Source: Gemmobacter aquaticus (GTDB taxonomy: Bacteria; Pseudomonadota; Alphaproteobacteria; Rhodobacterales; Rhodobacteraceae). From it: 64,000 nucleotides of DNA. This document shows positions 6,851 through 30,596 of this stretch, one piece after another (the stretch's first letter is position 1; every line of letters starts with the position of its first letter). Position numbers and translations under genes: made by a program. Under the pieces are notes generated by a model. That model saw only the letters and a list, made by a program, of their open reading frames with translations, searched no databases and had not been told where the DNA came from. The stretch covers positions 62,001-126,000 of the forward strand of contig NZ_VOAK01000021.1 in NCBI RefSeq assembly GCF_007859075.1. Direction: 5' to 3'.

Positions 6851-6961
6851 CGGAATTCTCCATATTGGAAATCGGGGCAGTCAGACCAGACAAAGCACAG
6901 CGCCGGCCGATTCGCCCGCGCCCATATTGCCGCACTGATATGAAAGGTCATCGAAAATGCG

Positions 6962-6984
6962 ACAGGCCCCCGGTGGGGGCCTGT
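6962..6984 (-). terminator. gltB terminator
   Basis: A perfect 10-bp stem ACAGGCCCCC/GGGGGCCTGT with a three-base loop, followed on the minus strand by GCATTTTCG. It lies 20 bases beyond the gltB stop codon. Confidence 0.75.
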
Positions 6985-7004
6985 GTGGGTCTTGGTGGCT
7001 GACC

Positions 7005-11543: not shown

Positions 11544-11546
11544 GGC

Positions 11547-11987
11547 TCACTCCTCTGGGTTGGCTTTTTGAAGCGAGGCAAGGAACTCCGCTTCGGTCAA
11601 CTGGTGGGTCGGTCCGGCAAAGGCAAAGGCGGCCGGTTTCTTGTCGATAAAGATTTCTCGCGTCAGCCGCTGGCCCGACAGATCGTCGATAAGGCCCGCA
11701 GCCATGTAGTAGTCGGTCGGCCCCATGCCGGGCTTCAGCCTGTACCACAGCGTGCTGCCGCAGGTGCTGCAGAACGACCGTTCGGCCCAGTCGGACGAGG
11801 TATAGCTGCGCACATGATCGGCACCCGTCACCGTCATGTCGGCCTCGGGCACGTCGAGGGTGATGAAGGCGGACCCCGTCCAGCGGCGGCACATCGCGCA
11901 GTGGCAGGCGCCAAGGTCGTGGGGCGCATTGCGGACGGTGACCTGCACCGCGCCGCACAGGCATTGTCCGTGCAGATCACCGCTCAT
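11547..11987 (-). CDS. GFA/CENP-V family zinc protein
   Basis: A 146-residue member of the GFA family (glutathione-dependent formaldehyde-activating enzyme/CENP-V fold). The zinc ligands are visible as QCLCGAVQV, CHCAMCRRWTG and FCSTCGSTLWYR, giving the usual CxC, CxxC and CxxC pattern. It sits inside the glutamate synthase operon: it overlaps the preceding unknown gene by 11 bases and ends three bases before gltB. Nothing in the sequence explains a role in glutamate synthesis. Actual formaldehyde-glutathione activity should not be assumed, since most family members have no proven substrate. Confidence 0.92.
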   Translation of the reverse strand: MSGDLHGQCLCGAVQVTVRNAPHDLGACHCAMCRRWTGSAFITLDVPEADMTVTGADHVRSYTSSDWAERSFCSTCGSTLWYRLKPGMGPTDYYMAAGLIDDLSGQRLTREIFIDKKPAAFAFAGPTHQLTEAEFLASLQKANPEE

Positions 11988-12729
11988 GGCGCACCTGCTG
12001 CAGCATCGGATCCAGCGGTGCCTCTGACATCAGCGAACCGCAGTCGAAGATTGGCTGGGTCGCGCCAAAGCCCGGCTCACCCGGCTTGATGAACTGGACC
12101 GGGCTTCCGTCCATCGGAAGCCAGTTCTCGCCATCCCAGAACTCTGACGGTCCCGCGAAGAAGAGCCGCAGCTCCTTTGAGATGTACTCCTTGCCGCGCG
12201 ACTGTCGCAGCACGGTGCCGTCAGGTGCCGTCTCGGTGAAGGCGAACTCGGTCTGGTTCAGCACCATGCCATCGATGGTGACAGTGCGCCCGGTGAGGAT
12301 GTCATGACCTGTCACATGGCTCGACTGCCCGTCATCACGGCTCAGGCCAAAGCTGAAATCGTCGCGCCCCGTGGCAACCAGCGCTGAAAAGCTGGCCGGG
12401 TCCTCGGCGCCCGCATCCATGGTCTGCCGCACATTCGGGTTGAACTCGAAGCTCTCGACCCACTCGGCCTCGTCATTGATACGGCTGACGAAGAAGACGC
12501 CTTCCTGATCGAAATCGGCCCGCCACTGATCGCCCGGCTGGGCGCTGCAGCGATAGTGGTTCGACACCCGGCAGGCGCGCGCCTGCACGGTCAGAAAAGC
12601 CTCGCAACCTTCGGGTGCCTGAAAGCCCACGGCCCCGGCAGGGACCGCCGCCATGACCGCCATGCCGGTCAGCAGGCCGTGCAAAGCCACGGGTGCCGCC
12701 ATTTGCCCAAGCTTCATCTTGCCCCACAT
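11977..12729 (-). CDS. exported protein of unknown function in the gltBD operon
   Basis: About 250 residues with an N-terminal signal peptide (hydrophobic stretch VALHGLLTGMAVMAAVPAGA, probable cleavage before FQAPEGC). The mature part has several Cys (CEAFLTVQARACRVSNHYRC) that could form disulfides in the periplasm, and beta-rich segments such as SHVTGHDILTGRTVTIDGM. I do not recognise the family. The start is uncertain among 12753, 12729 and 12717; 12729 has AAAGGG about ten bases upstream. The reading further upstream overlaps gltD and is unlikely. It overlaps the GFA gene by 11 bases. Confidence 0.75.
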   Translation of the reverse strand: MWGKMKLGQMAAPVALHGLLTGMAVMAAVPAGAVGFQAPEGCEAFLTVQARACRVSNHYRCSAQPGDQWRADFDQEGVFFVSRINDEAEWVESFEFNPNVRQTMDAGAEDPASFSALVATGRDDFSFGLSRDDGQSSHVTGHDILTGRTVTIDGMVLNQTEFAFTETAPDGTVLRQSRGKEYISKELRLFFAGPSEFWDGENWLPMDGSPVQFIKPGEPGFGATQPIFDCGSLMSEAPLDPMLQQVRHER

Positions 12730-16333: not shown

Positions 16334-16418
16334 GCCCAGATGGCGGAATTGGTAGACGCGCTGGTTTCAGGTACCAGTGCCGCAAGGCGTGGAGGTTCGA
16401 GTCCTCTTCTGGGCACCA
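16334..16418 (+). tRNA. tRNA-Leu (CAG), copy 1
   Basis: An 85-base tRNA with encoded CCA. The acceptor stem GCCCAGA pairs with TCTGGGC, the D-loop region is GGCGGAATTGGTAGACGCG, and the anticodon stem CTGGT/ACCAG encloses TTCAGGT, anticodon CAG. A long variable arm (TGCCGCAAGGCGT) is typical of leucine tRNA, and the T arm is GGAGGTTCGAGTCCTC. It is identical to copy 2, 226 bases downstream. Confidence 0.97.
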
Positions 16419-16559: not shown

Positions 16560-16644
16560 GCCCAGATGGCGGAATTGGTAGACGCGCTGGTTTCAGGTAC
16601 CAGTGCCGCAAGGCGTGGAGGTTCGAGTCCTCTTCTGGGCACCA
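16560..16644 (+). tRNA. tRNA-Leu (CAG), copy 2
   Basis: Base-for-base the same 85-nt tRNA as copy 1, including encoded CCA and anticodon CAG. The nine bases just upstream (CACGACATC) are shared with copy 1 as well, whereas sequence beyond that differs, which points to a local duplication of the tRNA unit. Confidence 0.97.
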
Positions 16645-16754: not shown

Positions 16755-17369
16755 GTGACGATTTACCTGCACAAGAACGATTTGCCCGACGGGCTGGACC
16801 TTGGCCCTGTGGTGGCCATCGACACCGAGACGATGGGTCTGGACCCGCGCCGCGACCGTCTTTGCGTGGTGCAACTGTCGTCCGGGAATGGCGACGCCCA
16901 TCTGGTGCAGATCGCCCGCGGCCAGACCAGCGCCCCCAACCTGCAACGCCTGCTGACCGACCCGTCGGTGGTGAAGCTGTTCCACTTTGGCCGCTTTGAC
17001 ATTGCCGCACTCAAGAATGCCTTTGGCGTGACGACCTCGCCCGTCTGGTGCACCAAGATCGCCTCACGCCTGATCCGCACCTTTACCGACCGGCACGGGT
17101 TGAAATACCTTCTGGCCGAACTGGTGGGCGTTGATGTGTCCAAGCAGCAGCAGACCTCTGACTGGGGGTCGGAGGAGCTGTCCGAGGCGCAGAAAGAATA
17201 TGCGGCATCCGACGTCCTTTACCTGCATCGTCTGAAGACCGCGCTGGAGGAACGGCTGTCGCGTGAAGGCCGGATGGATCTGGCACAGCGCTGCTTCGAC
17301 TTTCTGCCCACACGGGCAGAGCTGGACCTGATGGGATGGGATGAGCCCAATGACCTCTTCCACCACTGA
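16755..17369 (+). CDS. rnd: ribonuclease D-type 3'-5' exonuclease (short form)
   Basis: A 204-residue DEDD-family exonuclease. Exo I is AIDTETMGL (Asp23, Glu25), exo II is HFGRFDIAALK, and exo III is YAASDVLYLHRL with the DEDDy tyrosine. It consists of the nuclease domain only; the HRDC domains of full-length RNase D (about 375 residues) are absent, as in many alphaproteobacterial short homologues. The start is GTG at 16755 behind GGAGG; a longer reading would begin inside tRNA-Leu copy 2. It overlaps kdsD by 29 bases and heads the rnd-kdsD-lptCAB run. Its RNA substrate is unknown. Confidence 0.9.
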   Translation: MTIYLHKNDLPDGLDLGPVVAIDTETMGLDPRRDRLCVVQLSSGNGDAHLVQIARGQTSAPNLQRLLTDPSVVKLFHFGRFDIAALKNAFGVTTSPVWCTKIASRLIRTFTDRHGLKYLLAELVGVDVSKQQQTSDWGSEELSEAQKEYAASDVLYLHRLKTALEERLSREGRMDLAQRCFDFLPTRAELDLMGWDEPNDLFHH

Positions 17370-18315
17370 CTTTCTGGCCATCGGCCGTCGCGTCATACGC
17401 CGCGAATCAGAGGCGCTGGACATTCTCGCCGATACGCTGGACGGCGGCTTCAGCGCAGCGGTCGATCTGATCCTGCAGGCGCAGGGCCGCGTCATTGTCT
17501 GCGGCATGGGGAAATCCGGCCATATCGCGCGCAAGATCGCGGCGACCTTCGCATCAACCGGCACGCCCGCACAGTTCGTCCATCCGGGCGAGGCGAGCCA
17601 CGGTGATCTGGGCATGGTCACCGAATCCGATGTGGCGCTGGTTCTGTCGAACTCGGGCGAGACGCCCGAGCTTGCCGACATCATCGCCCATACCCGGCGC
17701 TTTGGCATTCCCCTGATCGGGGTCGCGGGGCGCGAAGGCTCGACCCTGCTGCGGCAGGCGGATGTGGCCATCCTGCTGCCGACGGTGCCCGAGGCCTGCG
17801 AGACGGGCATCGTGCCGACCACCTCGACCACGATGACACTGGCCCTTGGCGATGCGCTGGCGATCGCGCTGATGGAGCATCGGCAGTTCACCCCCGACCA
17901 GTTCCGCATCTTCCACCCCGGCGGCAAGCTTGGCGCGAAACTGGCCACCGTGCGCCAGTTAATGCATGCCGACCTGCCGCTGGTCGAAGAACATACTCCC
18001 ATGAGCGAGACGCTGCTGACCATGAGCCAGAAGGGCTTTGGTGTGGTGGGCGTGACGGACGTGCAGGGTCATCTGGCCGGCATCATCACGGATGGCGACC
18101 TGCGGCGCCACATGGAGGGCTTGCTCTCGCTCTCGGCCGCGCAGGTCATGACCCGGCATCCGCGCACAATCGGCCCCGATGCGCTGGCCGAAAAGGCCGT
18201 CGCGGTGATGCAGGCGAAAAAGATCACCTCGCTCTTCGTGGTCGATCCCGAAGGGACCGGCCATGCGGTCGGGCTGATCCATATCCACGACTGCCTGCGC
18301 GCGGGCGTGGTCTGA
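17341..18315 (+). CDS. kdsD: D-arabinose 5-phosphate isomerase
   Basis: A 324-residue KdsD/KpsF/GutQ enzyme that converts ribulose 5-phosphate to arabinose 5-phosphate, the precursor of Kdo for LPS. It has an N-terminal SIS domain (about residues 30-175; CGMGKSGHIARKIAATFAS, LSNSGETPELAD) and two C-terminal CBS domains (about 205-324; MTRHPRTIGPDALAEKAV). Length and order match the family. Start 17341 overlaps the end of rnd; a second ATG at 17350 is also possible. Its location directly before lptC-lptA-lptB links Kdo supply with LPS export. Confidence 0.94.
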   Translation: MSPMTSSTTDFLAIGRRVIRRESEALDILADTLDGGFSAAVDLILQAQGRVIVCGMGKSGHIARKIAATFASTGTPAQFVHPGEASHGDLGMVTESDVALVLSNSGETPELADIIAHTRRFGIPLIGVAGREGSTLLRQADVAILLPTVPEACETGIVPTTSTTMTLALGDALAIALMEHRQFTPDQFRIFHPGGKLGAKLATVRQLMHADLPLVEEHTPMSETLLTMSQKGFGVVGVTDVQGHLAGIITDGDLRRHMEGLLSLSAAQVMTRHPRTIGPDALAEKAVAVMQAKKITSLFVVDPEGTGHAVGLIHIHDCLRAGVV

Positions 18316-18327
18316 TCGGGGGCGGCG

Positions 18328-18930
18328 ATGGACGGGTACAGCCGGCTGGTGGGATGGCTCAAGGTCGCGCTGCCGCTGCTGGCGCTGGCGATCCTGTCGA
18401 GCCTCTTCCTGCTGACCCGTCGCATCGATCCCGAATCGGCGATCCCTTACAGCGATGCCGAGATTGCCGACCGACTGCGCGAGCCCCGGATGACCGACCC
18501 GGCCTTTGCCGGAACCACGCGCGATGGCGCCATGGTTACGATCACCGCAGCCGAGGCACGCCCTGCCGAAGATGGCGGCGGTGCGGCCCGCGACATCCGC
18601 GCGCAGCTGGCAACGCCTGACGGCGCGCGATCGGCGCTGACATCGGCCGGGCTGCGTTATGACCGCACATCGGGCCTCGCGGTCTTTGAGGACGGCGTGC
18701 TCTTTTCGAACTCGCTGGGCTACGAATTCCGCACCGACAGCATGTCGTTGCATCTTGACCGCACAGGGGCCGAAAGTGGTGGCGAGGTGCAGGGGCATGG
18801 TCCGCTGGGACAACTCACAGCCGGTCGGATGGAGTTGCGCCCGGCAGAGGATGGCGCATCGCCGGATGCGGGCTATCTTCTCGTTTTCAATGGTGGCGTC
18901 AGGCTGATATACCAGCCCCGCACACCCTGA
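18328..18930 (+). CDS. lptC: LPS export protein LptC
   Basis: A 200-residue single-pass inner membrane protein of the Lpt bridge, which passes LPS from LptFGB to LptA. One N-terminal membrane segment (VALPLLALAILSSLFLLT, about residues 10-28) is followed by a periplasmic beta-jellyroll; GLRYDRTSGLAVFEDGVLFSN and VQGHGPLGQLTAGRMEL are typical strands of LptC. It lies 12 bases after kdsD and nine bases plus a short spacer before lptA. Sequence identity in this family is low, so the assignment leans on size, topology and gene order. Confidence 0.9.
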   Translation: MDGYSRLVGWLKVALPLLALAILSSLFLLTRRIDPESAIPYSDAEIADRLREPRMTDPAFAGTTRDGAMVTITAAEARPAEDGGGAARDIRAQLATPDGARSALTSAGLRYDRTSGLAVFEDGVLFSNSLGYEFRTDSMSLHLDRTGAESGGEVQGHGPLGQLTAGRMELRPAEDGASPDAGYLLVFNGGVRLIYQPRTP

Positions 18931-18957
18931 TCCAAGCAGTTGAGCCGAGGCATTTTC

Positions 18958-19446
18958 ATGGTCCGCCCGCGTCGTTTCGTCCTTTTGCTGAGCGCCTTCC
19001 TGCCCCTCGCGGCCTGGGCTCAGGACGCGCAGGTGGCCTTTGGCGGGCTACGGCAGGACACGACCCTGCCGGTGGAGGTCAAGGCCGAGAGCCTGACGGT
19101 GAACCAGACCGACGGCAGCGCCACCTTTACCGGAAACGTGCTGGTCGGACAGGGTGAGATGCGGCTGGCAGCCCAGACGGTCCGGGTGGAGTATGCGGCG
19201 GATGGCAAGTCCATCGCCAAGCTGCATGCAACGGGCGGCGTCACACTCGCCAGTAACAGCGACGCTGCCGAGTCGGACGAGGCGGTCTATGCGGTCGACG
19301 TAGGAACCGTACTGATGACCGGCAACGTTCTACTGACCCAAGGCCCGAGCGCCATTGCCGGACAGAAGCTTCTGATCGACCTCAAGGCCGGGACTGGTCG
19401 CATGGAGGGTGGGGTGTCGACCGTCTTCTCGCCGGGTGGCAACTGA
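18958..19446 (+). CDS. lptA: LPS transport periplasmic protein LptA
   Basis: A 162-residue OstA-like protein with a clear signal peptide (VLLLSAFLPLAAWAQ, cleavage before DAQ). The mature part contains the repeated beta-strand pattern of LptA: VKAESLTVNQTDGSATFTGN, VRVEYAADGKSIAKLHATGG and AGTGRMEGGVSTVF. It would form the periplasmic filament that carries LPS to LptD. The ATG at 18958 behind GAGG is chosen over a TTG at 18940. Its stop overlaps the lptB start (TGATG), giving tight coupling. Confidence 0.92.
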   Translation: MVRPRRFVLLLSAFLPLAAWAQDAQVAFGGLRQDTTLPVEVKAESLTVNQTDGSATFTGNVLVGQGEMRLAAQTVRVEYAADGKSIAKLHATGGVTLASNSDAAESDEAVYAVDVGTVLMTGNVLLTQGPSAIAGQKLLIDLKAGTGRMEGGVSTVFSPGGN

Positions 19447-20198
19447 TGCGGGATGGATCGGTTGAAACCCCCTCGCTTGGCCTGCAGGTGCGCGGCCTGC
19501 GCAAGAGCTATCGCAAGCGTCCGGTGATCCGCGACGTGACGCTGAACCTCAATCGTGGTGAAGTGGTCGCCCTTCTGGGGCCAAATGGCTCGGGCAAGAC
19601 CACTTGCTTCTACTCGATCGCGGGCCTTGTCACGCCCGAGGGTGGGCAGGTGCTGATCGATGGCAAGGACGTCACCGCCCTTCCAATGTATCGGCGCGCA
19701 CGGCTTGGCGTGGGCTATCTGCCGCAAGAGATGTCGATCTTCCGCGGCCTTTCGGTCGAGGACAATATCCTTGCCGTATTGGAGATTCGCGAGCCCGACA
19801 GCCACAAGCGGCGCGAGCGGCTGGAAGAACTGCTGTCGGATTTTTCGATCACCCATCTGCGGCGCGCCCCTGCGCTGGCACTTTCGGGTGGCGAGCGGCG
19901 GCGGGTGGAGATCGCGCGCTGCCTGGCCGCCAACCCCAATTACCTGCTGCTTGACGAACCCTTTGCCGGCGTCGATCCCATCGCGGTGGGCGAGATCCGG
20001 CATCTGGTGCAGGACCTCAAGGGCCGTGGGCTGGGCGTTCTGATCACCGATCACAACGTCCGCGAAACGCTGGAGATCGTGGATCGCGCCTATATCCTGC
20101 ACGACGGCCATGTTCTGATGAGCGGCACGACCGACGAGATCGTTCAGGACGAGACCGTGCGCCGCGTCTATCTTGGCCAGAACTTCCGGATGAACTAG
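19446..20198 (+). CDS. lptB: LPS export ABC transporter ATPase LptB
   Basis: A 250-residue ABC ATPase that powers LPS extraction with LptFG (not in this window). Walker A is GPNGSGKT (45-52), the signature LSGGE (146-150), Walker B YLLLDEP (166-172), and the H-loop lies in LITDHNVRETLE. GVGYLPQEMSIFRGLSVEDN is diagnostic for LptB. It begins within the lptA stop. In many proteobacteria rpoN follows; here the next gene is hpf after 276 bases. Confidence 0.96.
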   Translation: MRDGSVETPSLGLQVRGLRKSYRKRPVIRDVTLNLNRGEVVALLGPNGSGKTTCFYSIAGLVTPEGGQVLIDGKDVTALPMYRRARLGVGYLPQEMSIFRGLSVEDNILAVLEIREPDSHKRRERLEELLSDFSITHLRRAPALALSGGERRRVEIARCLAANPNYLLLDEPFAGVDPIAVGEIRHLVQDLKGRGLGVLITDHNVRETLEIVDRAYILHDGHVLMSGTTDEIVQDETVRRVYLGQNFRMN

Positions 20199-21549: not shown

Positions 21550-22959
21550 TCAGGCAACGGGCGGGTTGGTCTTGCGCCAGTCCTTGAAACCGAACGACTG
21601 ATAGTCGCGCGCATAAGCCTCGCGCGCGGCATCCTCAAGGTCTGGGTCCCAAATCTCCCCCAGAGAGATCGGCAGGCCATCGTCCACGGGTCGATACTCT
21701 GGCGCCGCAACGCCGACCTCTGCAGCAAGCCAGGCCAGCCCCTCGGCCAGACGTTCTTCGCGCAGCACGACGTCGGGGATCTGGAACTGGGCAAATCCCT
21801 GCAGGGCGGCGGTCTGGCTTGCCAGGTGTCCGTCAATCTTTTGTCCGGTCTGGCCAGCCAGATAGATCCGCAGCCAGCGCAGGAAAGCGAGGAACCCGGC
21901 GCGCTGCGCAGCAGGTGTCACATCCGGCCCGACCGGCAGCTCAAGCCCATAGGCCCGCGTCATCAGCCGGTGCAGATCGTTGCGACCGCCCAGCACGACG
22001 CGGCAATAGCCGACATAGGCGCGCGGCAGCGGATGTCGCAGCACGGCAAAGCTGCGCTGGACGGGCTGGCTGGCCTTCCAGTCCCGCAACGACTTTTTCA
22101 CGAAGCCGTCGATCGTGCCGCCGCTGCCCACACGATCCAGCCAGTCGTTCACCGCAGCCTCGGGCCCGCCCCGCAGCGGCATGTGCAAAAGCCCCGCCCC
22201 TGCCGCCGCGACATAACCCGGGATGACCGGCCCCCGGCGCGGCTCAAAATTCGGGGTGCGTGCCAGGTTGAAGCGGTCGAGCCCGGCGAGCGCGACCACC
22301 ATATCCTCAAAGTTTTCAACCTTGTCCGCCAGCGGTTCGGGATTTTGCTTCTTCAACCGGGGGTCAGGACCTTCCAGCCGCCCCTTGACCCCAAGGAACC
22401 GGGCCAGGCCATTCAGCACCTCGGGGTCGGCGAGGTCCTCATAGTCGATATAGAAAGCCGTCTGCCCGGTGAGCTGCAACCGACGCATCAGATGCAGTTG
22501 AAACTGCTGGTTTGCGTCGAGATGCGCCTCGAACTCGACCGGATCGAAATGAGCGGTTGCCCGTTTCAGCCGCGAGGCATTGGTCAGGCGCCACTGGTCG
22601 GTCGCGACCGCAATCCGCAGGCTGACATAGCTTTCCAGCGGATTGCGCGTCAGGATGATCTTGCCGCAGGCGGGATCGTTCAACACATGCTCGATCACAC
22701 GCGCATCATGATCGTGAAAGCAGCGGAAGCCCGACAGCCCCTCGGTCTCGGCCCGCATGGATGCCAAGACAGCCAGCGGATCGGCCTCACGTGCTGCAAG
22801 GTCATGGCCAAAGAGGCTCTCGCAATTGCGCTTGCCCATGAATAGCGGATTGAAGACCTCCCCATGGCAGGTGACGCCTTCGAGCGCATTCAGACTTGCC
22901 TCAAGGAAGTTCGACCCGGTGCGCATGCCTGCGAACATGACGAAAGAGGTGAAGGTCAT
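21550..22959 (-). CDS. PAPS-dependent sulfotransferase-like protein, two-domain
   Basis: A 469-residue protein. The N-terminal half (about 1-215) is a Stf0/NodH-like sulfotransferase: the 5'-phosphosulfate loop GMRTGSNFLEASL (residues 11-23), the 3'-phosphate segment IILTRNPLESYVSLR, and the FYIDYEDLADPEVLNGLARFLG end. The C-terminal half (about 255-469) looks like a second sulfotransferase domain of another type (SFAVLRHPLPRAYVGYCRVV), but I see no clear PAPS P-loop in it. It is the last gene of a minus-strand series from galU, seven bases after the core-2-type glycosyltransferase, so a glycan acceptor is likely. The acceptor is not known. Confidence 0.85.
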   Translation of the reverse strand: MTFTSFVMFAGMRTGSNFLEASLNALEGVTCHGEVFNPLFMGKRNCESLFGHDLAAREADPLAVLASMRAETEGLSGFRCFHDHDARVIEHVLNDPACGKIILTRNPLESYVSLRIAVATDQWRLTNASRLKRATAHFDPVEFEAHLDANQQFQLHLMRRLQLTGQTAFYIDYEDLADPEVLNGLARFLGVKGRLEGPDPRLKKQNPEPLADKVENFEDMVVALAGLDRFNLARTPNFEPRRGPVIPGYVAAAGAGLLHMPLRGGPEAAVNDWLDRVGSGGTIDGFVKKSLRDWKASQPVQRSFAVLRHPLPRAYVGYCRVVLGGRNDLHRLMTRAYGLELPVGPDVTPAAQRAGFLAFLRWLRIYLAGQTGQKIDGHLASQTAALQGFAQFQIPDVVLREERLAEGLAWLAAEVGVAAPEYRPVDDGLPISLGEIWDPDLEDAAREAYARDYQSFGFKDWRKTNPPVA

Positions 22960-22966
22960 CGGGATC

Positions 22967-24655
22967 TCACTTCACCAGATGCGGACGGCTGCGCTGTGGC
23001 AGGGACTCGGCCGGTCGGGGCAGGCCGGTGAAATCACCGGTCAGGATGGGCTGCATGCCCTGATTGCGCAGTGTGGCCAGAAACTCGGCAAAACCCGCAA
23101 GGTCGATCATGCGCGGCACCTCGGTCAGCCGGCGCGCGCTGCGGGGATTGATGTCCTCCAGCAGCGTCTGCAGATGGTCCATCGGGTTCTCTGCGAACTC
23201 GGCCAGCGTCCAGATACGGACCCTGCCCTTGGCCGAAGGGCGGCGCAGCAGCGCAAGGTGGTCGGCCTCGATCTTCTGGAGGCGCGCCGCCTCTTTGCGG
23301 ATGCTGCCCAGATCGGCGCCGCTGCGGAACAAATGCAGCGCCCATGCGCCCGAAATCACCGCGATGCGGGCATTGTCGTCCTGCGCCAGATGCGCACCGA
23401 TTTGCTGCACATCACGCGGACCAAACTGAAAGCACTGACGTTCGCCCCGCGTATTCCAGATCAGGTTGGTCAGGAACGCCTCGGGGTTATAGTCACGCAA
23501 GGCGGCGCTGTCGGACACCGCGCCGTTGTAGATCGTCTCACCCCCCGCGAACTCGGCGCGTTCGGGCGCGAAAAGTCGTCCATGCACCCGCATGCCTGCA
23601 ACCTTGCCCAGCCAGGATTCGAAATCCACGAACAGCTCGGAAAAGCCCTCGAACACCGAATAGGGGGCGGCCGTCTCGCGGGCGCCTTGCGGATAGCGGC
23701 TCTGCATGTAAAGCCCGTGCCGCCCCGCCGTGCGCCGTTCAACCGCACGGGCGAAGATCCGGTCGATCTTGCCTGGTGCAGGCTCAGCCGCAGGTTGGCG
23801 CGCCAGATCGGCTGACAGGAAATGGTTGTAGAGCTTGTCGGCATGCGGCCAGATCTTGCGTGCGACAAAACAATCCGACTTGCGCAGAAGCTGCAGGTGA
23901 TCGTCGTAAAAGACATGTGGCTTGCCCTGAAAGTCGAACTTCGACAAGGTCAGTGACCGGCTTTCGACATTCTGCGAATAGCGCCGCACCAGCGTCTGGA
24001 AATAGGCCTCATCGGGGATCCACACGCGCTTGAAGTAGCGGTCATGGGCGGCCCGGTCGGGGCTTTGCAGGATTGCGGTCAGCGTTTTCCGGGTCAGGCA
24101 CCACCACTGGCTGCCCAGATGCGGCTCTATCCCCGCAGGAATGCGGCGCGCAAAGCCAAGGCGTCGTTGCAGGCGGACGTAGGCATCGAACAGCCGCCTC
24201 TGCTTGCGCCACGAGAACGGGAAACGCAGCGTGAAGCGCTCGATATTCAGCCCGCCCACCGTCCAGCCGACATCCTCGGTCGTGACGCTTTCGATGAAAT
24301 CGGTCTCGGGTCGGGCCGCGAGATAGCCAACCAACTCTTCAACGGGGCGCAGCGGCAGACAGGCACCAGAAGCGAGATAAGCGTGCTGGACATCTGGAAA
24401 ATCAGCAAGAAGCCGGGTCGCCGCGGCTTGGGTCGCCTGCACCAGCCCCCAGGTGCCCCATTCGCAGGCGTAGCGATCTGAAAAGCGGATGTTTGAAACA
24501 TCCGCAAGCGATCGCCGCAGACGTTGAAAGGCGCGTTTGCGGACGCGACGATCAACATGGATCACCACGGGGCAGCCATGATCTGACCAATGCCGCGCGG
24601 CATCGGCCGCGCGCTCTAGCGCGGTATGGCACAGCATGATGATGCCGACGCTCAA
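22967..24655 (-). CDS. core-2/I-branching-type glycosyltransferase with C-terminal extension (DUF5928-like)
   Basis: About 562 residues. The N-terminal half (1-270) resembles GT14 core-2/I-branching beta-1,6-N-acetylglucosaminyltransferases: IIMLCHTALERAA, VVIHVDRRV, HAYLASGACLPLRPVEELV and GSQWWCLTRKTL with WIPDEAYFQTLV. The C-terminal half (about 290-562) resembles the DUF5928 region of Rhodobacteraceae homologues; it contains NPRSARRLTEVPRMIDLAG and a sulfotransferase-like tail, with no function known to me. The start is probably TTG at 24655, whose TTGA overlaps the upstream stop; AAAGGGAA precedes it and there is no ATG before residue 7. Confidence 0.82.
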   Translation of the reverse strand: MSVGIIMLCHTALERAADAARHWSDHGCPVVIHVDRRVRKRAFQRLRRSLADVSNIRFSDRYACEWGTWGLVQATQAAATRLLADFPDVQHAYLASGACLPLRPVEELVGYLAARPETDFIESVTTEDVGWTVGGLNIERFTLRFPFSWRKQRRLFDAYVRLQRRLGFARRIPAGIEPHLGSQWWCLTRKTLTAILQSPDRAAHDRYFKRVWIPDEAYFQTLVRRYSQNVESRSLTLSKFDFQGKPHVFYDDHLQLLRKSDCFVARKIWPHADKLYNHFLSADLARQPAAEPAPGKIDRIFARAVERRTAGRHGLYMQSRYPQGARETAAPYSVFEGFSELFVDFESWLGKVAGMRVHGRLFAPERAEFAGGETIYNGAVSDSAALRDYNPEAFLTNLIWNTRGERQCFQFGPRDVQQIGAHLAQDDNARIAVISGAWALHLFRSGADLGSIRKEAARLQKIEADHLALLRRPSAKGRVRIWTLAEFAENPMDHLQTLLEDINPRSARRLTEVPRMIDLAGFAEFLATLRNQGMQPILTGDFTGLPRPAESLPQRSRPHLVK

Positions 24656-25704
24656 GCCCAGTTCCCTTTCGACATCAGGCCCAGGATCTCGAGCTGGCGC
24701 CAGTTGATGTACTTTTCGCTCCACCGGCACCACAGGTCTTCACCGCCCTCGCGATAGGCGGCGTATTCAGCCCCGCTGGCGTAATGCTCGCGGCGCCCGG
24801 CCTCCTCCTCGGCCTTCCCGGCAAGGGTCGGCAGGAACTTGGCATGCAGAAGACAGCCCGAGGCTTTCTCGCCCCCCCATGCATCATAGACAAGATTCAA
24901 GCCGCGCGGCAAAAGCATATGGGTCGAGCTGACATAAACATAGTCGCGCCGCCAGCGCACCAGCGGGATCTTGTTCAGCGCCGGTGCCTGCTCTGGCTGG
25001 TCGGCGAACATTACCCGCGCACGCGGCCCGCCCTGGATCCACAGATTGCCGTAGCGTTGGTTCGGGGTGATCGTGTAGTTCCCGCTGTCAAACCAGTTCA
25101 GCAGGCTGAACGGGTCCTGACCTTCGCGGTAATCCAGCGCCTTCCACGGCCCCTTGGGATACATGTCCAGCAGCATCGCCGGGAACGACCGCACCCCACC
25201 AGCATCAAGCCAGTCTGTCAGCGCCCGTAGCGGTCGGCTGTCGCAGAACGGATAGACCAGAAACTCATCCGGATCGACAACCACTGTCCAGTGGTCGCTT
25301 CCATAGCGCAGAAGCAGCCAGTTTATCCAGTCAATGCCGTAACGGGCACTCTTGTAGCTGCTGTCGGTGGTCCAGACCGATACATCGGGCTGCGCCGCAA
25401 GATATTCGGTCGACCCATCAGTGCTTGCGTTGTCCACAATCAGAAAGTGGTTCACGCCGAGTTCGCGGTAGTACTGCAGGAAATAAGGAAGCCGCGTCCG
25501 CTCATTCCGGATGGTTGAGAACAGAAGGATGTCGCTGCGCCGGATCAGGTCTGTCCGGTTCTGCATGGCAGTCAGCTCGCGCCGCTTCCGGAAGGCGCGG
25601 AAGCGCCAGCGCTTGCGCGCCAGTCGCAGCTGATATGTCGACACCAATCCCACCGCGAAACCCCTGAACTCTCCAAACACCGGGTGCCGCGCCCCTGTTA
25701 CCAT
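24652..25704 (-). CDS. glycosyltransferase family 2-like protein, paralogue A
   Basis: A 350-residue protein of the Glyco_tranf_2_4/GT92-like group. After a basic N terminus come LLFSTIRNERTRLPYFLQYY and HFLIVDNASTDGSTEYL (nucleotide-binding half), then VVVDPDEFLVYP with the metal-binding DxD. It has no membrane segment. It is clearly paralogous to the next gene upstream (same FxTIRNE, VDNASTD and STHMLLPRGLN/STHAALPRALN landmarks). It is coupled to the core-2-type gene by a TTGA overlap. The sugar donor and acceptor are unknown. Confidence 0.87.
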   Translation of the reverse strand: MVTGARHPVFGEFRGFAVGLVSTYQLRLARKRWRFRAFRKRRELTAMQNRTDLIRRSDILLFSTIRNERTRLPYFLQYYRELGVNHFLIVDNASTDGSTEYLAAQPDVSVWTTDSSYKSARYGIDWINWLLLRYGSDHWTVVVDPDEFLVYPFCDSRPLRALTDWLDAGGVRSFPAMLLDMYPKGPWKALDYREGQDPFSLLNWFDSGNYTITPNQRYGNLWIQGGPRARVMFADQPEQAPALNKIPLVRWRRDYVYVSSTHMLLPRGLNLVYDAWGGEKASGCLLHAKFLPTLAGKAEEEAGRREHYASGAEYAAYREGGEDLWCRWSEKYINWRQLEILGLMSKGNWA

Positions 25705-25835
25705 GCGCTCCCGTCGAAATCTCGATCTAGGATGATAATCAAGCGTTGCAACGGCGTAAACGGGAGCAGGCCACTGATGCGGCCGAATTCAACGCGCGAA
25801 ATGCAATATGTAGCGTCCATGCCGCCATATGCACC

Positions 25836-26861
25836 CTAGAACCATGCGCCACGCGTCATCAGGCCCAGATGTTCCAGCTGTTCAGCCCCCTGATACCGCG
25901 TGGACGAAGGCTGCCAGAGGACTGGGTCTGCAGCGAGACTGTCGTAGTAGCCCGCGTAGTTCCCCGTATGGGTGAAGTGCTCCCCCCGCTGCTTCTCTTC
26001 GACCGCGCGTGCGGTGATCGAGGGGAGGAACTTGGTGTGAAGCAGAACGCCGGTTGGCAGGCCTTGGCACAGGAAGCCCTTGTTCAATGCGCGTGGCAGA
26101 GCGGCATGGGTCGAACTGAGATAGGCGTCACCCCGTTGCCAACGGATCAGCGGCGTCTTGTGCAGATGGGGTGAGAGGTCCGGTCGATCAGGAAAGAACA
26201 CCCGTTCACGCACCCCGCCGCGGATCGACAGGTTTGCGTAGCGGGTCTGCACCTCACGCCGATAGCCCACTGCATCGAACCAGCACAGCGCATCCAGCGG
26301 GTTATCTCCCGGCGCCGGCCCCGTCTGGGTCAGACGCCCTTGGGGATAGAGGTCGAGCATCATGGCCGCGAACACCCGCTCTCCCCGTCCATCCAGCCAG
26401 CGGGTCAGATCATGCAGGTTGCGTTCGGGGAAATGCGGATGCACCAGCAACTCGTCGGCGTCGACTGTCAGACACCAGTGTCCATGACCGTGCCGACGCA
26501 GAAGATGGTTGATCCAGTCCATGCCAAAGCGCGAGGCACGGTAGCTATGTGCGGTCTGCCAGAGCGACACGTCGGGGCAGTCCGACAAGAGCGCCGCGCT
26601 ATTGTCGGTGCTGGCATTGTCTACGATCAGAAAATGCCGGACGCCCAGCCTGCGGTAATGGTCGAGAAAGTGTGGAAGCCTTTCGGCTTCGTTCCGGATG
26701 GTCGCGAAGCACAGGATCTCATCCCGGCTTATCGACGCCGTCCGGTCAACGAGACAGTGCAACTGGTGGCGGCTGCGGAAGGCACGCCAAAGCAGGCGGC
26801 GCCTGCGCCAGCGCAGCCTTAGGGCCGCACGCGCCTGCGCCACCAGTTCACTTGCCCGCAT
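25836..26861 (-). CDS. glycosyltransferase family 2-like protein, paralogue B
   Basis: A 341-residue homologue of the downstream glycosyltransferase: ILCFATIRNEAERLPHFLDHY, HFLIVDNASTDNSAALL and the DxD segment LTVDADELLVHP. The N terminus is very Arg-rich (LRLRWRRRRLLWRAFRSR), which could favour association with the membrane. It starts five bases after the galU stop, so galU and this gene form one transcript; 131 bases without a gene separate it from paralogue A. Acceptor and donor are unknown, though GalU upstream makes a UDP-hexose donor plausible. Confidence 0.87.
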   Translation of the reverse strand: MRASELVAQARAALRLRWRRRRLLWRAFRSRHQLHCLVDRTASISRDEILCFATIRNEAERLPHFLDHYRRLGVRHFLIVDNASTDNSAALLSDCPDVSLWQTAHSYRASRFGMDWINHLLRRHGHGHWCLTVDADELLVHPHFPERNLHDLTRWLDGRGERVFAAMMLDLYPQGRLTQTGPAPGDNPLDALCWFDAVGYRREVQTRYANLSIRGGVRERVFFPDRPDLSPHLHKTPLIRWQRGDAYLSSTHAALPRALNKGFLCQGLPTGVLLHTKFLPSITARAVEEKQRGEHFTHTGNYAGYYDSLAADPVLWQPSSTRYQGAEQLEHLGLMTRGAWF

Positions 26862-26866
26862 CGGCC

Positions 26867-27766
26867 TTATTGGGCGGCCTTCTGCTGCGCGACGACGTCA
26901 TGCAGATAGGTTGCAAACTCGTCCTGCAGGTCGGGGCGCGAGAGGCCGAAGGCGACGGTGGCTTGCAGGAAGCCAGCTTTCGATCCGCAATCATAGCGCT
27001 GGCCGCTGAAGCGATAGCCATAGACGCCCGTGCCACCGGCGCGGGTTTCCTCGGCAATGGCGTCGGTCAGCTGGATCTCGCCGCCGGCGCCAAGCTTCTT
27101 GGCGTTGAGGTTGTTCAGAACCTCGGGCGACAGGATGTAGCGGCCGATCACGGCAAGGTTCGACGGCGCCTCGTTGGCCTTGGGCTTTTCAACCATGCCA
27201 CGGGCCTTGACGATGCTGCCCATATCCTCGGCGATGTCGAGCACCCCGTAGGCCGATGCCTTGGCGGGCGGCACTTCCATTGCGGCCACCATGTTGCCGC
27301 CGGTCTGCTCATAGGCCTCGACCATCTGCTGCAGGCAGGGCTTGTCGGCGGCAATCACGTCATCGGGCAGCAGCACGGCAAAGGGCTCGTCCCCGATCAG
27401 GCGGCGGGCGCACCAGACGGCGTGGCCAAGCCCCATCGGGCGGTTCTGACGGACATATGCGATGGCGCCCGAATCCATGTTCGTCGCGTCAAGCACCTTA
27501 AGAAGATCGGTCTTGTTCGAATCGCGGAGCTTGTTTTCAAGCTCGGGCGCGTGGTCGAAATAGTCCTCCAGCGCGGATTTGCCGCGCGAAGTGACGAAGA
27601 TGAACTCGGTGATCCCGGCCGCGCGCGCCTCGTCGATCGCGTATTGGATCAACGGGCGGTCCACCAACGTCATGATCTCTTTCGGGATCGACTTGGTAGC
27701 CGGAAGGAACCGCGTCCCCATACCCGCCACGGGAAAGACCGCCTTGGTGACCTTTCTTGGATTCAT
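26867..27766 (-). CDS. galU: UTP-glucose-1-phosphate uridylyltransferase
   Basis: A 299-residue nucleotidyltransferase that makes UDP-glucose for exopolysaccharide and LPS sugars. Visible are the activation loop VAGMGTRFLPATKSIPKEI near the start, VRQNRPMGLGHAVWCARRLI, FAVLLPDDVI with the metal Asp, and GRYILSPEVL. It leads a run of glycosyltransferase genes and a sulfotransferase on the minus strand. Length is normal and the start ATG is clear. The 248 bases upstream (27767-28014) contain no gene and should hold its promoter; I see no distinctive motif there. Confidence 0.96.
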   Translation of the reverse strand: MNPRKVTKAVFPVAGMGTRFLPATKSIPKEIMTLVDRPLIQYAIDEARAAGITEFIFVTSRGKSALEDYFDHAPELENKLRDSNKTDLLKVLDATNMDSGAIAYVRQNRPMGLGHAVWCARRLIGDEPFAVLLPDDVIAADKPCLQQMVEAYEQTGGNMVAAMEVPPAKASAYGVLDIAEDMGSIVKARGMVEKPKANEAPSNLAVIGRYILSPEVLNNLNAKKLGAGGEIQLTDAIAEETRAGGTGVYGYRFSGQRYDCGSKAGFLQATVAFGLSRPDLQDEFATYLHDVVAQQKAAQ

Positions 27767-28014
27767 GTTCGTCTCGATTCCTGACAGCTAATCGGTTTCT
27801 CAGGGCTGGGCGGCTACACCGGCCAGCGGGGTCTAATCTCTCGGGGTCCGCAACCATCGACGCGAATCGGCGCGGTCTGGTGGCGGACATAACATCAACG
27901 GGGTCGTGCTATCCACTGGTGCCCGCCCCCACAAGCATGGCCTGCAGTTTGAACCACATGGATTGGGCGAAGTTTTGCCAAACCTGCGGCTTTGCTGTGA
28001 TCTTGACGCGCGGA

Positions 28015-28809
28015 TCACCGCGCGGCCATTTCAGCCATCATCGCTTCGATGCGCGGCACGTCCTCAGGGTTGTTCAGCTCCCAGAACTGGCGGCCTTTCG
28101 CCTCGACCTCGACGCAAAGCACATTGCGCCCCTGCTCCAGAAAGCGCAACTGTTCGAGCCCCTCCAGCACCTCAAGCGGGCCCACCGGCCAGGCGGGATA
28201 GGCGCGCAGCGCCCGCGGGCGATAGGCATAGACGCCCACATGGTGAAAGACCGGCGTCGGATCATCGTCACCAAAGGTCTTGCCGGTATAGGGGATCACC
28301 TCTTTGGAGAAGTAGAGCGCCCGCCCGCCCGCACCAAAGACGGCAGTGGTGCCACCCACGCGACCCGCGCGGCGGTCTGCGAGGAAACTCGATACCGCCC
28401 GACCATCACAGCGCAGCACAGGCGTTGCGATATCGGCCTGGGAATCGGCGCGCAGACCCGCGATCAGGTCCTCGACGAACCACGCAGGCGTCAGCGGCGC
28501 GTCGCCCTGCAGGTTCACCACCATCTCGAAGCCCGGCAGCTTTGCCGCCACCTCGGCGCAGCGCTCGGTGCCGTTCTGGCAGGTGGTCGAGGTCATCACG
28601 ACCTCGGCGCCAAAGCCCTCGGCATGGGCCTTGATGCGGTCATCATCGGTGGCAACCACAACACGGTCGGCGCCCTTTACCGCCCGCGCCGCCTCATAGC
28701 TGCGCTGGATCAGGGTCTTGGCGCCATCGGGCCCATTCAGCACGACAAGCGGCTTGCCCGGATAGCGGGTGGAGGCATAACGGGCCGGGATCGCGATCAG
28801 AACGCTCAT
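28015..28809 (-). CDS. kdsB: CMP-Kdo synthetase
   Basis: A 264-residue 3-deoxy-manno-octulosonate cytidylyltransferase that activates Kdo for lipid A glycosylation. The nucleotide-binding motif is IPARYASTRYPGKPL, followed by VVVATDDDRI, TCQNGTERCAEVA, VVNLQGDAPL and the late HHVGVYAYRPRAL motif of the KdsB family. It overlaps the end of cysQ by four bases (ATGA). It is the second Kdo pathway gene in the window, with kdsD at 17341. Confidence 0.95.
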   Translation of the reverse strand: MSVLIAIPARYASTRYPGKPLVVLNGPDGAKTLIQRSYEAARAVKGADRVVVATDDDRIKAHAEGFGAEVVMTSTTCQNGTERCAEVAAKLPGFEMVVNLQGDAPLTPAWFVEDLIAGLRADSQADIATPVLRCDGRAVSSFLADRRAGRVGGTTAVFGAGGRALYFSKEVIPYTGKTFGDDDPTPVFHHVGVYAYRPRALRAYPAWPVGPLEVLEGLEQLRFLEQGRNVLCVEVEAKGRQFWELNNPEDVPRIEAMMAEMAAR

Positions 28810-29600
28810 TTCCGAAGCTCCACGCCGGGGGCATAGGCGATGAAGAACGGATTGTCCCAGCCGGGTTTGCCATAGGCAAGGGGGGTGTGGTCATCGAACC
28901 GCACCACATGGCCACCCGCGCCACGCAGAACCGCATCGCCGGCTGCCGTGTCCCATTCCATCGTGCGGCCAAGGCGGGGATAGAGATCGGCCTCACCCGT
29001 CGCCACCAGACAGAATTTCAGCGAAGAGCCAGCCGAGCGCATGTCCTTGACCGCATATTTCGCAATGTAGTCATCCGTCGCGGCATCACGGTGCGATTTC
29101 GAGGCAACCACCATCAGCGCGCCATTGTCAGGGGTGGACACCCCGATGCGGCGCAGATTACCGGGCTTTTCCTTGTCGAGCGCACCCGTCTCCTCAACGG
29201 CGGCACCATCCTCGGTCGTGTAGAAAAGCCGTCCCTGCGCCGGGGCATAGACCACACCGCGCGTCGGCACGCCATTCTCGACATAGGCGATGTTCACGGT
29301 GAAATCGCCACGGCGCTGAATGAATTCCTTGGTGCCGTCCAGCGGATCGACGATCAGGAAGGTCTGGGCCGTCAGATCATGGCTGGCCGCCTGCTCTTCG
29401 GTGATCAGGGTCACATCGGGAAAGGCTGCGCGCAAACCTGCCGCGATCACGGCATCGGCGGCCTCGTCCGCTGCGGTCACCGGACTTGCGTCGCTCTTGG
29501 AGCGCACCTCGAACTCGGGCGAGTTGTAGATTTCCATGATCCGGTCGCCTGCCTCGAGGGCCAGACGGCGGATAACGGGGACGAGGCGCGAAAAATCCAT
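28806..29600 (-). CDS. cysQ: 3'(2'),5'-bisphosphate nucleotidase
   Basis: A 264-residue inositol monophosphatase-fold enzyme that hydrolyses PAP (adenosine 3',5'-bisphosphate) to AMP. The metal motif is VDPLDGTKEFIQ; the GTKEFI sequence is characteristic of CysQ rather than IMPase or FBPase. LITEEQAA supplies the Glu metal ligand, and EWDTAAGDAVLRGAGG is the second signature. PAP is released by sulfotransferases and by PAPS reduction, so its position a few kb from a sulfotransferase is functionally sensible. It is upstream of and overlaps kdsB. Confidence 0.94.
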   Translation of the reverse strand: MDFSRLVPVIRRLALEAGDRIMEIYNSPEFEVRSKSDASPVTAADEAADAVIAAGLRAAFPDVTLITEEQAASHDLTAQTFLIVDPLDGTKEFIQRRGDFTVNIAYVENGVPTRGVVYAPAQGRLFYTTEDGAAVEETGALDKEKPGNLRRIGVSTPDNGALMVVASKSHRDAATDDYIAKYAVKDMRSAGSSLKFCLVATGEADLYPRLGRTMEWDTAAGDAVLRGAGGHVVRFDDHTPLAYGKPGWDNPFFIAYAPGVELRK

Positions 29601-29774
29601 CTTCAGCTCCGGATGCGGCGCGGATGCCGCGAAGTTGCGTCAAAAACCGAGTGCCCTTATCATCGTTCGGCAACCGTTCGGCAAGGTTTCGCGCGCAGAC
29701 TGCGTTTCGCGCCCAGATTAGCGCCATCCAACCGGACCAACAGCCCAGCACAGGGTCACGCCAAAGGTTTACGC

Positions 29775-30596
29775 ATGTTTCAGGTCGAACGACCGAAATC
29801 GATACTCGGATCGGTGATTGGCACCTTCGAGCTGATCTTTCACGCCAGCGTCCACAAGGTCCGCAAGGGACACGGCAACGCGATCGTCGGGCTGTTGCTG
29901 AACATCCTGCAGATGGTGCTGATGATCGTCGTCTTCTACACGATGATGAGCCTCCTGGGCGCGCGCGGCATGGCGATCCGGGGCAACTATGTCGTCTACC
30001 TGATGACGGGGATCTTCTTCTTCTTCACGCATATCAAGGCCATTGGCGCGGTCGCCAGCGCCGATGGCCCGACCTCGACGATGATGCAACACGCGCCCAT
30101 GAACACAGTGATCTCGATTGTCGCCTCGGCGCTGGCCTCGCTCTACCAGCAGTTTCTCGCCGTCGCGGTGATCCTGTATCTGTACCACGCGGCCATTGAA
30201 CCCATCAGCATCCACGATCCGGTCGGCGCCATGGGCATGATGCTGCTCTCTTGGGGGTCGGGCGTGGGAATCGGGATGATCCTGATGGCCGCAAAACCCT
30301 GGGCACCAGATTTTTTTGGCATCCTGACGCAGGTCTATATGCGGGCCAACATGTTCGCATCGGGAAAGATGATGGTCGCCAACAACACGCCCGGCCATAT
30401 CCTGCAATGGTTCACCTGGAACCCGTTGTTCCATACGATTGATCAGGGCCGGGGCTTCGTCTTTCAGAATTATCACCCGCACAACAGCAACATCGCCTAT
30501 CCGCTGGCCTGCACCTTTGTCTGCATCCTGATCGGGCTGATGGCGGAGTTCTACACGCGCAAGCACATCTCGGTCAGCTGGAGCGCCCGGCGGTAA
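29775..30596 (+). CDS. ABC-2-type polysaccharide/polyol phosphate exporter permease (KpsM-like)
   Basis: A 273-residue membrane protein with six hydrophobic segments in the ABC-2 pattern (NAIVGLLLNILQMVLMIVVF, VVYLMTGIFFFFTHI, VISIVASALASLYQQFLAV, MMLLSWGSGVGIGMILMA, and the last near the C terminus). It resembles KpsM/RfbD-type capsule or O-antigen export permeases, which need an ATPase partner. No matching KpsT-type ATPase is adjacent. Start 29775 is chosen because upstream sequence overlaps cysQ antisense. It is divergent from cysQ-kdsB and followed by the dnaK promoter. Confidence 0.85.
   Translation: MFQVERPKSILGSVIGTFELIFHASVHKVRKGHGNAIVGLLLNILQMVLMIVVFYTMMSLLGARGMAIRGNYVVYLMTGIFFFFTHIKAIGAVASADGPTSTMMQHAPMNTVISIVASALASLYQQFLAVAVILYLYHAAIEPISIHDPVGAMGMMLLSWGSGVGIGMILMAAKPWAPDFFGILTQVYMRANMFASGKMMVANNTPGHILQWFTWNPLFHTIDQGRGFVFQNYHPHNSNIAYPLACTFVCILIGLMAEFYTRKHISVSWSARR

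Follow-up and report, generated by a model that had tools for sequence, protein, structure and literature searches.

Does a compact group of genes in Gemmobacter aquaticus build, sulfate and export a surface glycan? The genes lie at positions 21550-30596 of a 64,000-nucleotide stretch (the window; contig NZ_VOAK01000021.1, positions 62,001 to 126,000) from an assembly of 3.99 Mb in 27 contigs. A first-pass annotation had suggested this function for eight genes, all of which were found within 21550-30596 by profile matches or, for the sulfotransferase, by homology and fold. Based on gene content, gene order, co-occurrence, the residues of the 3'-phosphoadenosine 5'-phosphosulfate (PAPS) site and the degenerate domains, all of which were computed, the operon galU-GT2-GT2-GT14/DUF5927-sulfotransferase probably makes a sulfated surface glycan that would be primed on a lipid bearing 3-deoxy-D-manno-octulosonic acid (Kdo) and exported by an ATP-binding cassette (ABC) transporter. 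We give this reading a probability of about 0.6. The eight genes are:

21550..22959, minus strand: sulfotransferase of 469 aa with two domains (phmmer match, fold, PAPS-site residues)
22967..24655, minus strand: GT14 (core-2/xylosyltransferase-like) glycosyltransferase fused to DUF5927 (PF02485 and PF19349)
24652..25704, minus strand: GT2b, a PF13704 glycosyltransferase and upstream partner of GT14 (Pfam)
25836..26861, minus strand: GT2a, a PF13704 glycosyltransferase (Pfam)
26867..27766, minus strand: galU, supply of uridine diphosphate (UDP)-glucose, head of the probable operon (TIGR01099)
28015..28809, minus strand: kdsB, supply of cytidine monophosphate (CMP)-Kdo (NF003950)
28806..29600, minus strand: cysQ, phosphatase for 3'-phosphoadenosine 5'-phosphate (PAP) (TIGR01331)
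29775..30596, plus strand: KpsM-like ABC-2 permease, divergent from cysQ (NF050053 homologue)

GalU, KdsB and CysQ score above the cut-offs of their models, with 329.0 bits (cut-off 326.8), 348.7 bits (cut-off 234) and 262.9 bits (cut-off 228.8), respectively. What had been described as a core-2-type glycosyltransferase with an unknown C-terminal half corresponds to PF02485 'Branch' (GT14; 61.4 bits, cut-off 23.4) followed by PF19349/DUF5927 (461.7 bits). A Pfam search of the window's permease protein gave no match.

A conserved glycosyltransferase-sulfotransferase core

One genome per genus was searched with each window protein, covering 149 genera of the window's family, the Rhodobacteraceae. 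Matches were obtained for the sulfotransferase in 122 genera, GT14 in 128, GT2b in 122 (E 1e-40), the KpsM-like permease in 128, PF05159 in 138, adenosine 5'-phosphosulfate (APS) kinase in 138 (134 above cut-off), CysQ in 141 and KdsB in 141 (E 1e-45). The cross-tabulation leaves out seven GT14 matches (G028, G063, G069, G096, G133, G142 and G148; best E 4e-24 to 2e-54), taken as a GT14 paralogue only, as judged by E-value, together with four weak KpsM matches (G008, G067, G069 and G083) and five genomes with weak PF05159 matches only (G017, G063, G090, G102 and G125). One of the 122 sulfotransferase matches (G074) is a weak, half-length match distant from the locus.

In the resulting table, the sulfotransferase and GT14-DUF5927 are found together in 119 genera, with the sulfotransferase alone in 3, GT14 alone in 2 and neither in 25. 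For the sulfotransferase and GT2b, 119 genera have both, 3 and 3 only one, and 24 neither. Its joint occurrence with KpsM (both 120, sulfotransferase only 2, KpsM only 4, neither 23) and with KpsC/KpsS (both 122, sulfotransferase only 0, KpsC/KpsS only 11, neither 16) follows the same pattern. All four core genes are present in 118 of the 149 genera and none in 23, leaving 8 mixed.

The genes are also close together. GT14 adjoins GT2b in all 121 genomes that have both, and the sulfotransferase lies within 2.5 kb of GT14 in 116 of 119, the exceptions being G085 and G118, where the pair is split across contigs, and G074. Sulfotransferase and KpsM are at most 20 kb apart in 100 of 120 genomes, and 18 of the other 20 have them on different contigs. 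In a class-wide set, DUF5927 was detected in 5 of 385 genomes, all five from the window's own family, whose share of the 385 is not given.

Comparative synteny, which the first-pass annotation had suggested as a check, was examined in 73 loci retrieved on account of this block, 70 of which contain both GT14 and the sulfotransferase (exceptions L031, L032 and L078). The order kpsM-cysQ-(kdsB)-galU-GT2b-GT14-sulfotransferase-ptsN-hpf-lptB is kept in 69 of these 70 loci from other genomes (exception L048), so the grouping is not due to chance. GT2b, GT14 and the sulfotransferase share one strand in 70/70 loci, with a median gap of 22 bp between the ends of the GT14 and sulfotransferase matches. 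The 13 named relatives with a sulfotransferase belong to Gemmobacter (9), Roseovarius, Thalassovita, Planktomarina and Lentibacter. The window sulfotransferase is 65-70 percent identical to those of Gemmobacter, and for DnaK, pieces of which are present in five Gemmobacter loci, identity is 93-96 percent; these values point to a Gemmobacter-like source within the Rhodobacteraceae. The first-pass annotation had missed that this gene block is retained in most sampled genera of the family.

Within the window, seven genes lie on the minus strand and the permease alone, its start corrected to 29775, on the plus strand. GalU and GT2a are separated by 5 bp, GT2a and GT2b by 131 bp, and GT14 and the sulfotransferase by 7 bp, while cysQ and kdsB overlap by 4 bp. 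GT2b and GT14 also overlap by 4 bp with the corrected GT14 start: by comparison with the starts in relatives, GT14 most likely begins at TTG 24655, overlapping the TGA of the preceding gene, rather than at GTG 24733. This spacing suggests two minus-strand transcription units, cysQ-kdsB and galU-GT2a-GT2b-GT14-sulfotransferase. What lies between galU and GT2b varies: GT2a in the window, but a PF00534-type glycosyltransferase in Gemmobacter lanyuensis (L002), which has an extra glycosyltransferase between kdsB and galU as well. The conserved core is GT2-GT14-sulfotransferase, probably forming one operon with galU.

The sulfotransferase

No Pfam family matches the sulfotransferase above its cut-off; the nearest is PF13469 (15.6 bits, cut-off 27). 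Among 14 relatives that were aligned, 12 match PF13469 with E no higher than 1 (best 1.8e-5), and membership of this curated family is not claimed. The only PDB match is 9vki, 'LPS sulfotransferase NodH', over residues 2-152 (2.6e-9 with phmmer, 1.5e-11 with a 14-row profile). The predicted structure, with a predicted local distance difference test score (pLDDT) of 82.7, comprises two domains, a division overlooked in the first-pass annotation: an N-terminal NodH/Stf0-like domain (about 1-228) with an intact PAPS site and a C-terminal, degenerate Sulfotransfer_2-like domain (about 242-469). Residues 1-227 align with Stf0 1tex at Z 13.0 (192 aligned, root mean square deviation (rmsd) 4.0), and the fold matches 4gox at Z 13.1 (202 aligned, rmsd 3.7). 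All 50 structure matches listed by VIA, which span residues 2-240 and barely cover the C-terminal half, are sulfotransferases by title except the Teg12/Teg14 rows, which we take to be sulfotransferases too.

Across 72 sequences, R13, G15, S16, N17, E34 and S113 are conserved in 71 and R105 in all 72. These residues correspond to the R-x-G motif of the phosphosulfate-binding (PSB) loop and the serine on the 3'-phosphate-binding (PB) helix, both among the PAPS-site features given in the available part of PMC11625862. E34 is a candidate catalytic base (Glu or His), a role assigned by analogy. Because of the 9vki match, the fold and the near-invariant PAPS-site residues, the N-terminal domain is predicted to be a PAPS-dependent, NodH/Stf0-like sulfotransferase that transfers sulfate.

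The C-terminal half matches the Sulfotransfer_2 protein of a second GT14 locus (see below) at E 2.3e-11 and probability 97, with none of 200 column shuffles scoring as well, and PF03567 matches 7 of 14 members at E up to 1 (best 2.4e-5). Its 3'-phosphate motif is kept (H309 in 70/72, P310 in 72/72 and R313 in 72/72). The PKCACST loop of the Sulfotransfer_2 partner, which carries the PSB lysine motif, has no counterpart in the C-terminal half, in a region where the alignment is forced and of low confidence; the C-terminal half is therefore probably inactive. The two halves match each other at E 0.00084 and 0.0019 (0/200 shuffles as good). Since this match covers only about 49 columns around a GQT motif, away from the PAPS motifs, a duplication is not claimed.

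The GT14 fusion and a second GT14-sulfotransferase module

The GT14 domain resembles 2gak (Z 17.2, 216 aligned, rmsd 3.5) and 6eja (Z 15.2, 205 aligned, rmsd 3.4). The model of the whole fusion has a mean pLDDT of 58, with a weak DUF5927 part, and the Foldseek and VIA listings are occupied by the GT14 domain. DUF5927 was compared with its neighbours as 72-row profiles in hhalign. Against the N-terminal domain of the sulfotransferase it gave E 6.9e-5 (score 39.1, HHsuite probability 63 percent), and E 0.0015 (17 percent) with query and template swapped; the top score of 200 column shuffles was 23.0. As controls, nine neighbour families gave E of at least 0.16, the C-terminal half of the sulfotransferase at least 0.083 and reversed profiles at least 0.077. 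Profiles of 14 sequences gave probabilities of 1.7 and 9.6 percent (E 0.029 and 0.0034). The match is centred on HGE-F-NP versus HG(H/R)-LF-AP, and the two domains agree in the order of their predicted strands and helices. DUF5927 has no R-x-G-S loop, HGE is changed to HGH or HGR, the Glu is lost, and the 3'-phosphate Arg and Ser are replaced. From these alignments, DUF5927 is likely, though not certainly, homologous to the N-terminal domain and a degenerate sulfotransferase domain; as the PAPS-binding residues are lost, we do not call it a sulfotransferase.

On contig C1 (about 134647; L019/L084), a second GT14 gene, this one with a DUF5928 fusion (412.7 bits), lies divergent from a Sulfotransfer_2 gene (125 bits). 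Among 26 loci taken from the best-scoring 28 second GT14 places listed, which are not a random sample, a Sulfotransfer_2 gene is near GT14-DUF5928 in 25 (about 1.8 kb off in L094) and absent nearby in L095. That GT14 genes have sulfotransferase partners at two separate places within one family is an argument for sulfated GT14 products. DUF5928 and DUF5927 show a weak colinear match (E 0.0026 and 0.012; 0/200 shuffles as good). A relationship of DUF5928 to the adjacent Sulfotransfer_2 protein was tried as well and gave no signal (E 0.33 and 0.22).

kdsB and cysQ as neighbours

Of the 122 sulfotransferase-positive genera, 119 keep CysQ, as do 22 of the 27 negative ones, and the counts for KdsB are identical. 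Eight of the CysQ matches in negative genomes (G014, G017, G029, G033, G054, G059, G083 and G090) reach just 36-60 percent identity and are possibly not orthologous. The two genes still adjoin in 14 of the 21 negative genera with both. Retention and adjacency without the sulfotransferase point to an older neighbouring pair. KdsB was detected within 35 of the 70 retrieved loci, some of which stop short of that point; as a dedicated part it was rejected, being kept in 22 of 27 genera without the sulfotransferase. For the same reason CysQ, which had been read as the by-product phosphatase of this pathway, is not dedicated to it, although it may still clear PAP as a housekeeping enzyme. Thus, of the set thought to build, sulfate and export a glycan, the core genes and their co-occurrence with KpsM and KpsC/KpsS stand, whereas kdsB and cysQ are not specific members.

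Export, Kdo and PAPS genes elsewhere in the genome

On contig C1, KpsC (three PF05159 stretches), a Poly_export protein and KpsS are clustered, the two PF05159 proteins being the predicted KpsC and KpsS homologues of this genome. Another site on C1 holds an ABC ATPase (KpsT), a KpsE homologue and a PF00793 protein, putatively KdsA from its sequence. Homologues of KpsM (in the window), KpsT, KpsE and the outer-membrane Poly_export protein are thus all present. Located 3' of the KdsA-like gene (L083, 9420-13530), two look-alike proteins flank an apparent TonB-type receptor, noticed by eye with no search made.

A second ABC polysaccharide cluster was observed on contig C7 (6000-25500; L082). It has a permease, a KpsE homologue and an ATPase of its own, and it also encodes a pyruvyl transferase, CysNC and a Sulfotransfer_2 protein (26.9 bits, cut-off 22). 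As this cluster has its own transporter set, the window KpsM most likely works with KpsT-KpsE of C1, by elimination. The genome has no APS kinase match other than this CysNC, the PAPS synthase, which means that the whole cell may rely on the C7 cluster for its PAPS. Across genera, APS kinase above cut-off is found in 114 of 122 sulfotransferase-positive and 20 of 27 negative ones; it was considered as a discriminating test and set aside, since the difference is not sharp.

Proposed function and alternatives

In the proposed pathway, GalU would supply UDP-glucose, the GT2 enzymes would extend the chain and GT14 would add one sugar, after which the N-terminal domain of the sulfotransferase would transfer sulfate from PAPS to the glycan product. 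KpsC and KpsS would prime the glycan on a Kdo-bearing lipid, and the exporter would consist of the local KpsM, KpsT-KpsE encoded elsewhere and the outer-membrane Poly_export protein. The probable role of DUF5927 and of the C-terminal half of the sulfotransferase is to bind the acceptor or to dock the two enzymes to each other. The whole may be related to the group 2/3 capsule pathway, conserved and with its genes split up. From the genes we infer the acceptor, the sugar identities, the lipid anchor, the docking and export of the product by the named transporter.

Several observations weigh against this. Strong KpsC/KpsS matches persist in 11 of the 27 sulfotransferase-negative genera, and kdsB and cysQ show no specific link to the glycan block. 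The permease matches the KpsM model NF050053 at E 3.4e-11, yet with 43.6 bits against a cut-off of 300, and the KpsE homologue reaches 225.2 bits against 437.5; by NCBIfam cut-offs, both are homologues and not equivalogs. The kps homologues lie at three separate sites instead of one contiguous kps locus. Among the parts listed as missing in the first-pass annotation, the ABC ATPase and the PAPS synthase (CysNC) were located, but neither a polymerase nor a chain-length system turned up among the genes examined, the genome not having been screened exhaustively for a polymerase. Eight sulfotransferase-positive genera have no APS kinase above cut-off, one of them (G021) with sub-cut-off pieces. 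In addition, the co-occurrence statistics take no account of shared ancestry, several negative genomes are incomplete, and the neighbouring lpt genes would also suit lipopolysaccharide (LPS). These neighbours are:

17341..18315, plus strand: SIS+CBS protein, Kdo supply (domain content), which we take to be KdsD/KpsF-like
18328..20198, plus strand: lptC-lptA-lptB, LPS export (lptB by TIGR04406; lptC and lptA named from position)

The main uncertainty is accordingly whether the product is a capsule-like polymer, as the co-occurrence with KpsM and KpsC/KpsS would suggest, or LPS or a lipid-linked oligosaccharide, as the lpt and Kdo neighbours would. The product might then be a sulfated LPS core or other lipid-linked oligosaccharide, with KpsM, kdsB and cysQ as unrelated neighbours. 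The recurrent placement of lptC-lptA-lptB and the KdsD-like gene on one side and kdsB on the other fits this, as does the title given by the depositors to the best PDB match, an LPS sulfotransferase NodH. We consider it unlikely, while still the strongest competitor, because the sulfotransferase tracks KpsM (120/122 versus 4/27) and KpsC/KpsS (122/122 versus 11/27), and kdsB, needed for Kdo synthesis, is retained in 22 of 27 genomes without the sulfotransferase.

Another possibility might be that the acceptor of the sulfotransferase is a small molecule, a glycolipid or a protein and that the glycosyltransferases are merely co-located. NodH and Stf0 are indeed glycolipid sulfotransferases according to the available part of PMC11625862, and clustering within 9 kb is not enough to establish the acceptor. 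The adjacency to GT14 (116/119), the resemblance of the GT14 tail to a sulfotransferase domain and the second GT14 gene that likewise neighbours a sulfotransferase make this improbable. The least probable alternative is a sulfotransferase that has lost sulfate transfer, in a cluster that makes a glycan without sulfate, since the N-terminal PAPS-site residues are kept in 71-72 of 72 sequences, despite the sub-cut-off Pfam scores and a C-terminal half that lacks the PSB lysine motif in its forced, low-confidence alignment region.

A sulfated glycan assembled by the core and exported through KpsM therefore remains our preferred reading. A broader version is tentative and rather doubtful: a family-defining sulfated glycan could arise from paired glycosyltransferase-sulfotransferase modules, in which degenerate domains (DUF5927, perhaps DUF5928, and the C-terminal half of the sulfotransferase) couple glycosylation to sulfation. 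If true, a degenerate domain in each module would be its docking or acceptor-reading part. It is pure speculation that phages and gene transfer agents of the family might use so conserved a glycan as a general receptor.

Other features of the window

Two tRNA-Leu (CAG) genes lie near each other on the plus strand (16334-16418 and 16560-16644). A 1710-codon open frame at 6957-12089 (plus strand), with no Pfam match at 1e-5, runs antisense to the glutamate synthase gene at 7005-11543 (minus strand). It is probably an artefact of high G+C, which calls for caution with long open frames here.

Comparison with known systems

No description of this gene set was found among the papers listed from the open-licence full-text literature, which is no proof of absence, and none was retrieved there for DUF5927 or DUF5928. 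Surface polysaccharide loci generally differ from strain to strain; a locus whose chromosomal position is constant in most of the genera sampled would imply a shared sulfated surface glycan. DUF5927 and DUF5928, Pfam families of unknown function, gain a testable function, with a glycosyltransferase seemingly coupled to sulfation via a dead sulfotransferase domain. The combination of glycosyltransferases with a sulfotransferase is uncommon. The locus may be relevant for the chemistry of bacterial sulfated polymers, for attachment of phages and gene transfer agents, and for enzyme discovery for sulfated polysaccharides.

Rhodobacter capsulatus belongs to the same family as the source of the window and likewise has a surface polysaccharide, the capsule serving as receptor for its gene transfer agent RcGTA. 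As far as the available part of PMC10218006 describes it, this capsule depends on rcc01081-01086, is linked to wza/wzb/wzc export and is absent from strain 37b4; the text contains neither 'KpsM' nor 'glycosyltransferase', and 'sulf' solely in an antibiotic name. Given these different export genes, it was set aside as the same system. The available part of PMC9552610, on the effect of cysE1 on capsule, holds nothing on sulfation, and PMC9870897 had no bearing on the locus. SPO0035, a 'Core-2 I-branching enzyme' and a candidate counterpart of the window GT14, is listed in the accessible part of PMC8319176 among genes common to sulfur-aminolipid producers, with the lipid traced to another gene.

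At the level of single enzymes, the sulfotransferase shares with NodH and Stf0 (PF13469, PF09037; 9vki, 1tex) the fold, the R-x-G-S phosphosulfate loop, the 3'-phosphate-helix serine and the conserved Glu, but differs in its added Sulfotransfer_2-like C-terminal domain and its sub-cut-off Pfam score. GT14 shares its catalytic fold with the core-2 GlcNAc-transferase and xylosyltransferase, whereas it is bacterial and fused to DUF5927.

The closest comparisons as a system are two sulfated capsules, each known here from the part of the report that was available. Cobetia marina KMM 1449 has kpsETMD, kpsSC, cysNC/cysD/cysQ and sulfotransferase genes (PMC11766843), of which kpsSC and cysQ have homologues here, and Vibrio sp. 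KMM 8419 has a cluster for a sulfated, ABC-exported capsule with PAPS genes (PMC11641403). These clusters are large, with about 70 and 80 genes, respectively, whereas the core here is small. The first is reported among strains of three Cobetia species (PMC11766843) and the second varies between strains of one species (PMC11641403); in contrast, the present core occupies one site across most sampled genera, its exporter genes are dispersed over three sites, GT14 carries the DUF5927 fusion and the sulfotransferase has two domains. Sulfated, ABC-exported capsules are thus already known, and what is new is the GT14/DUF5927-sulfotransferase variant conserved in most sampled genera of the family.

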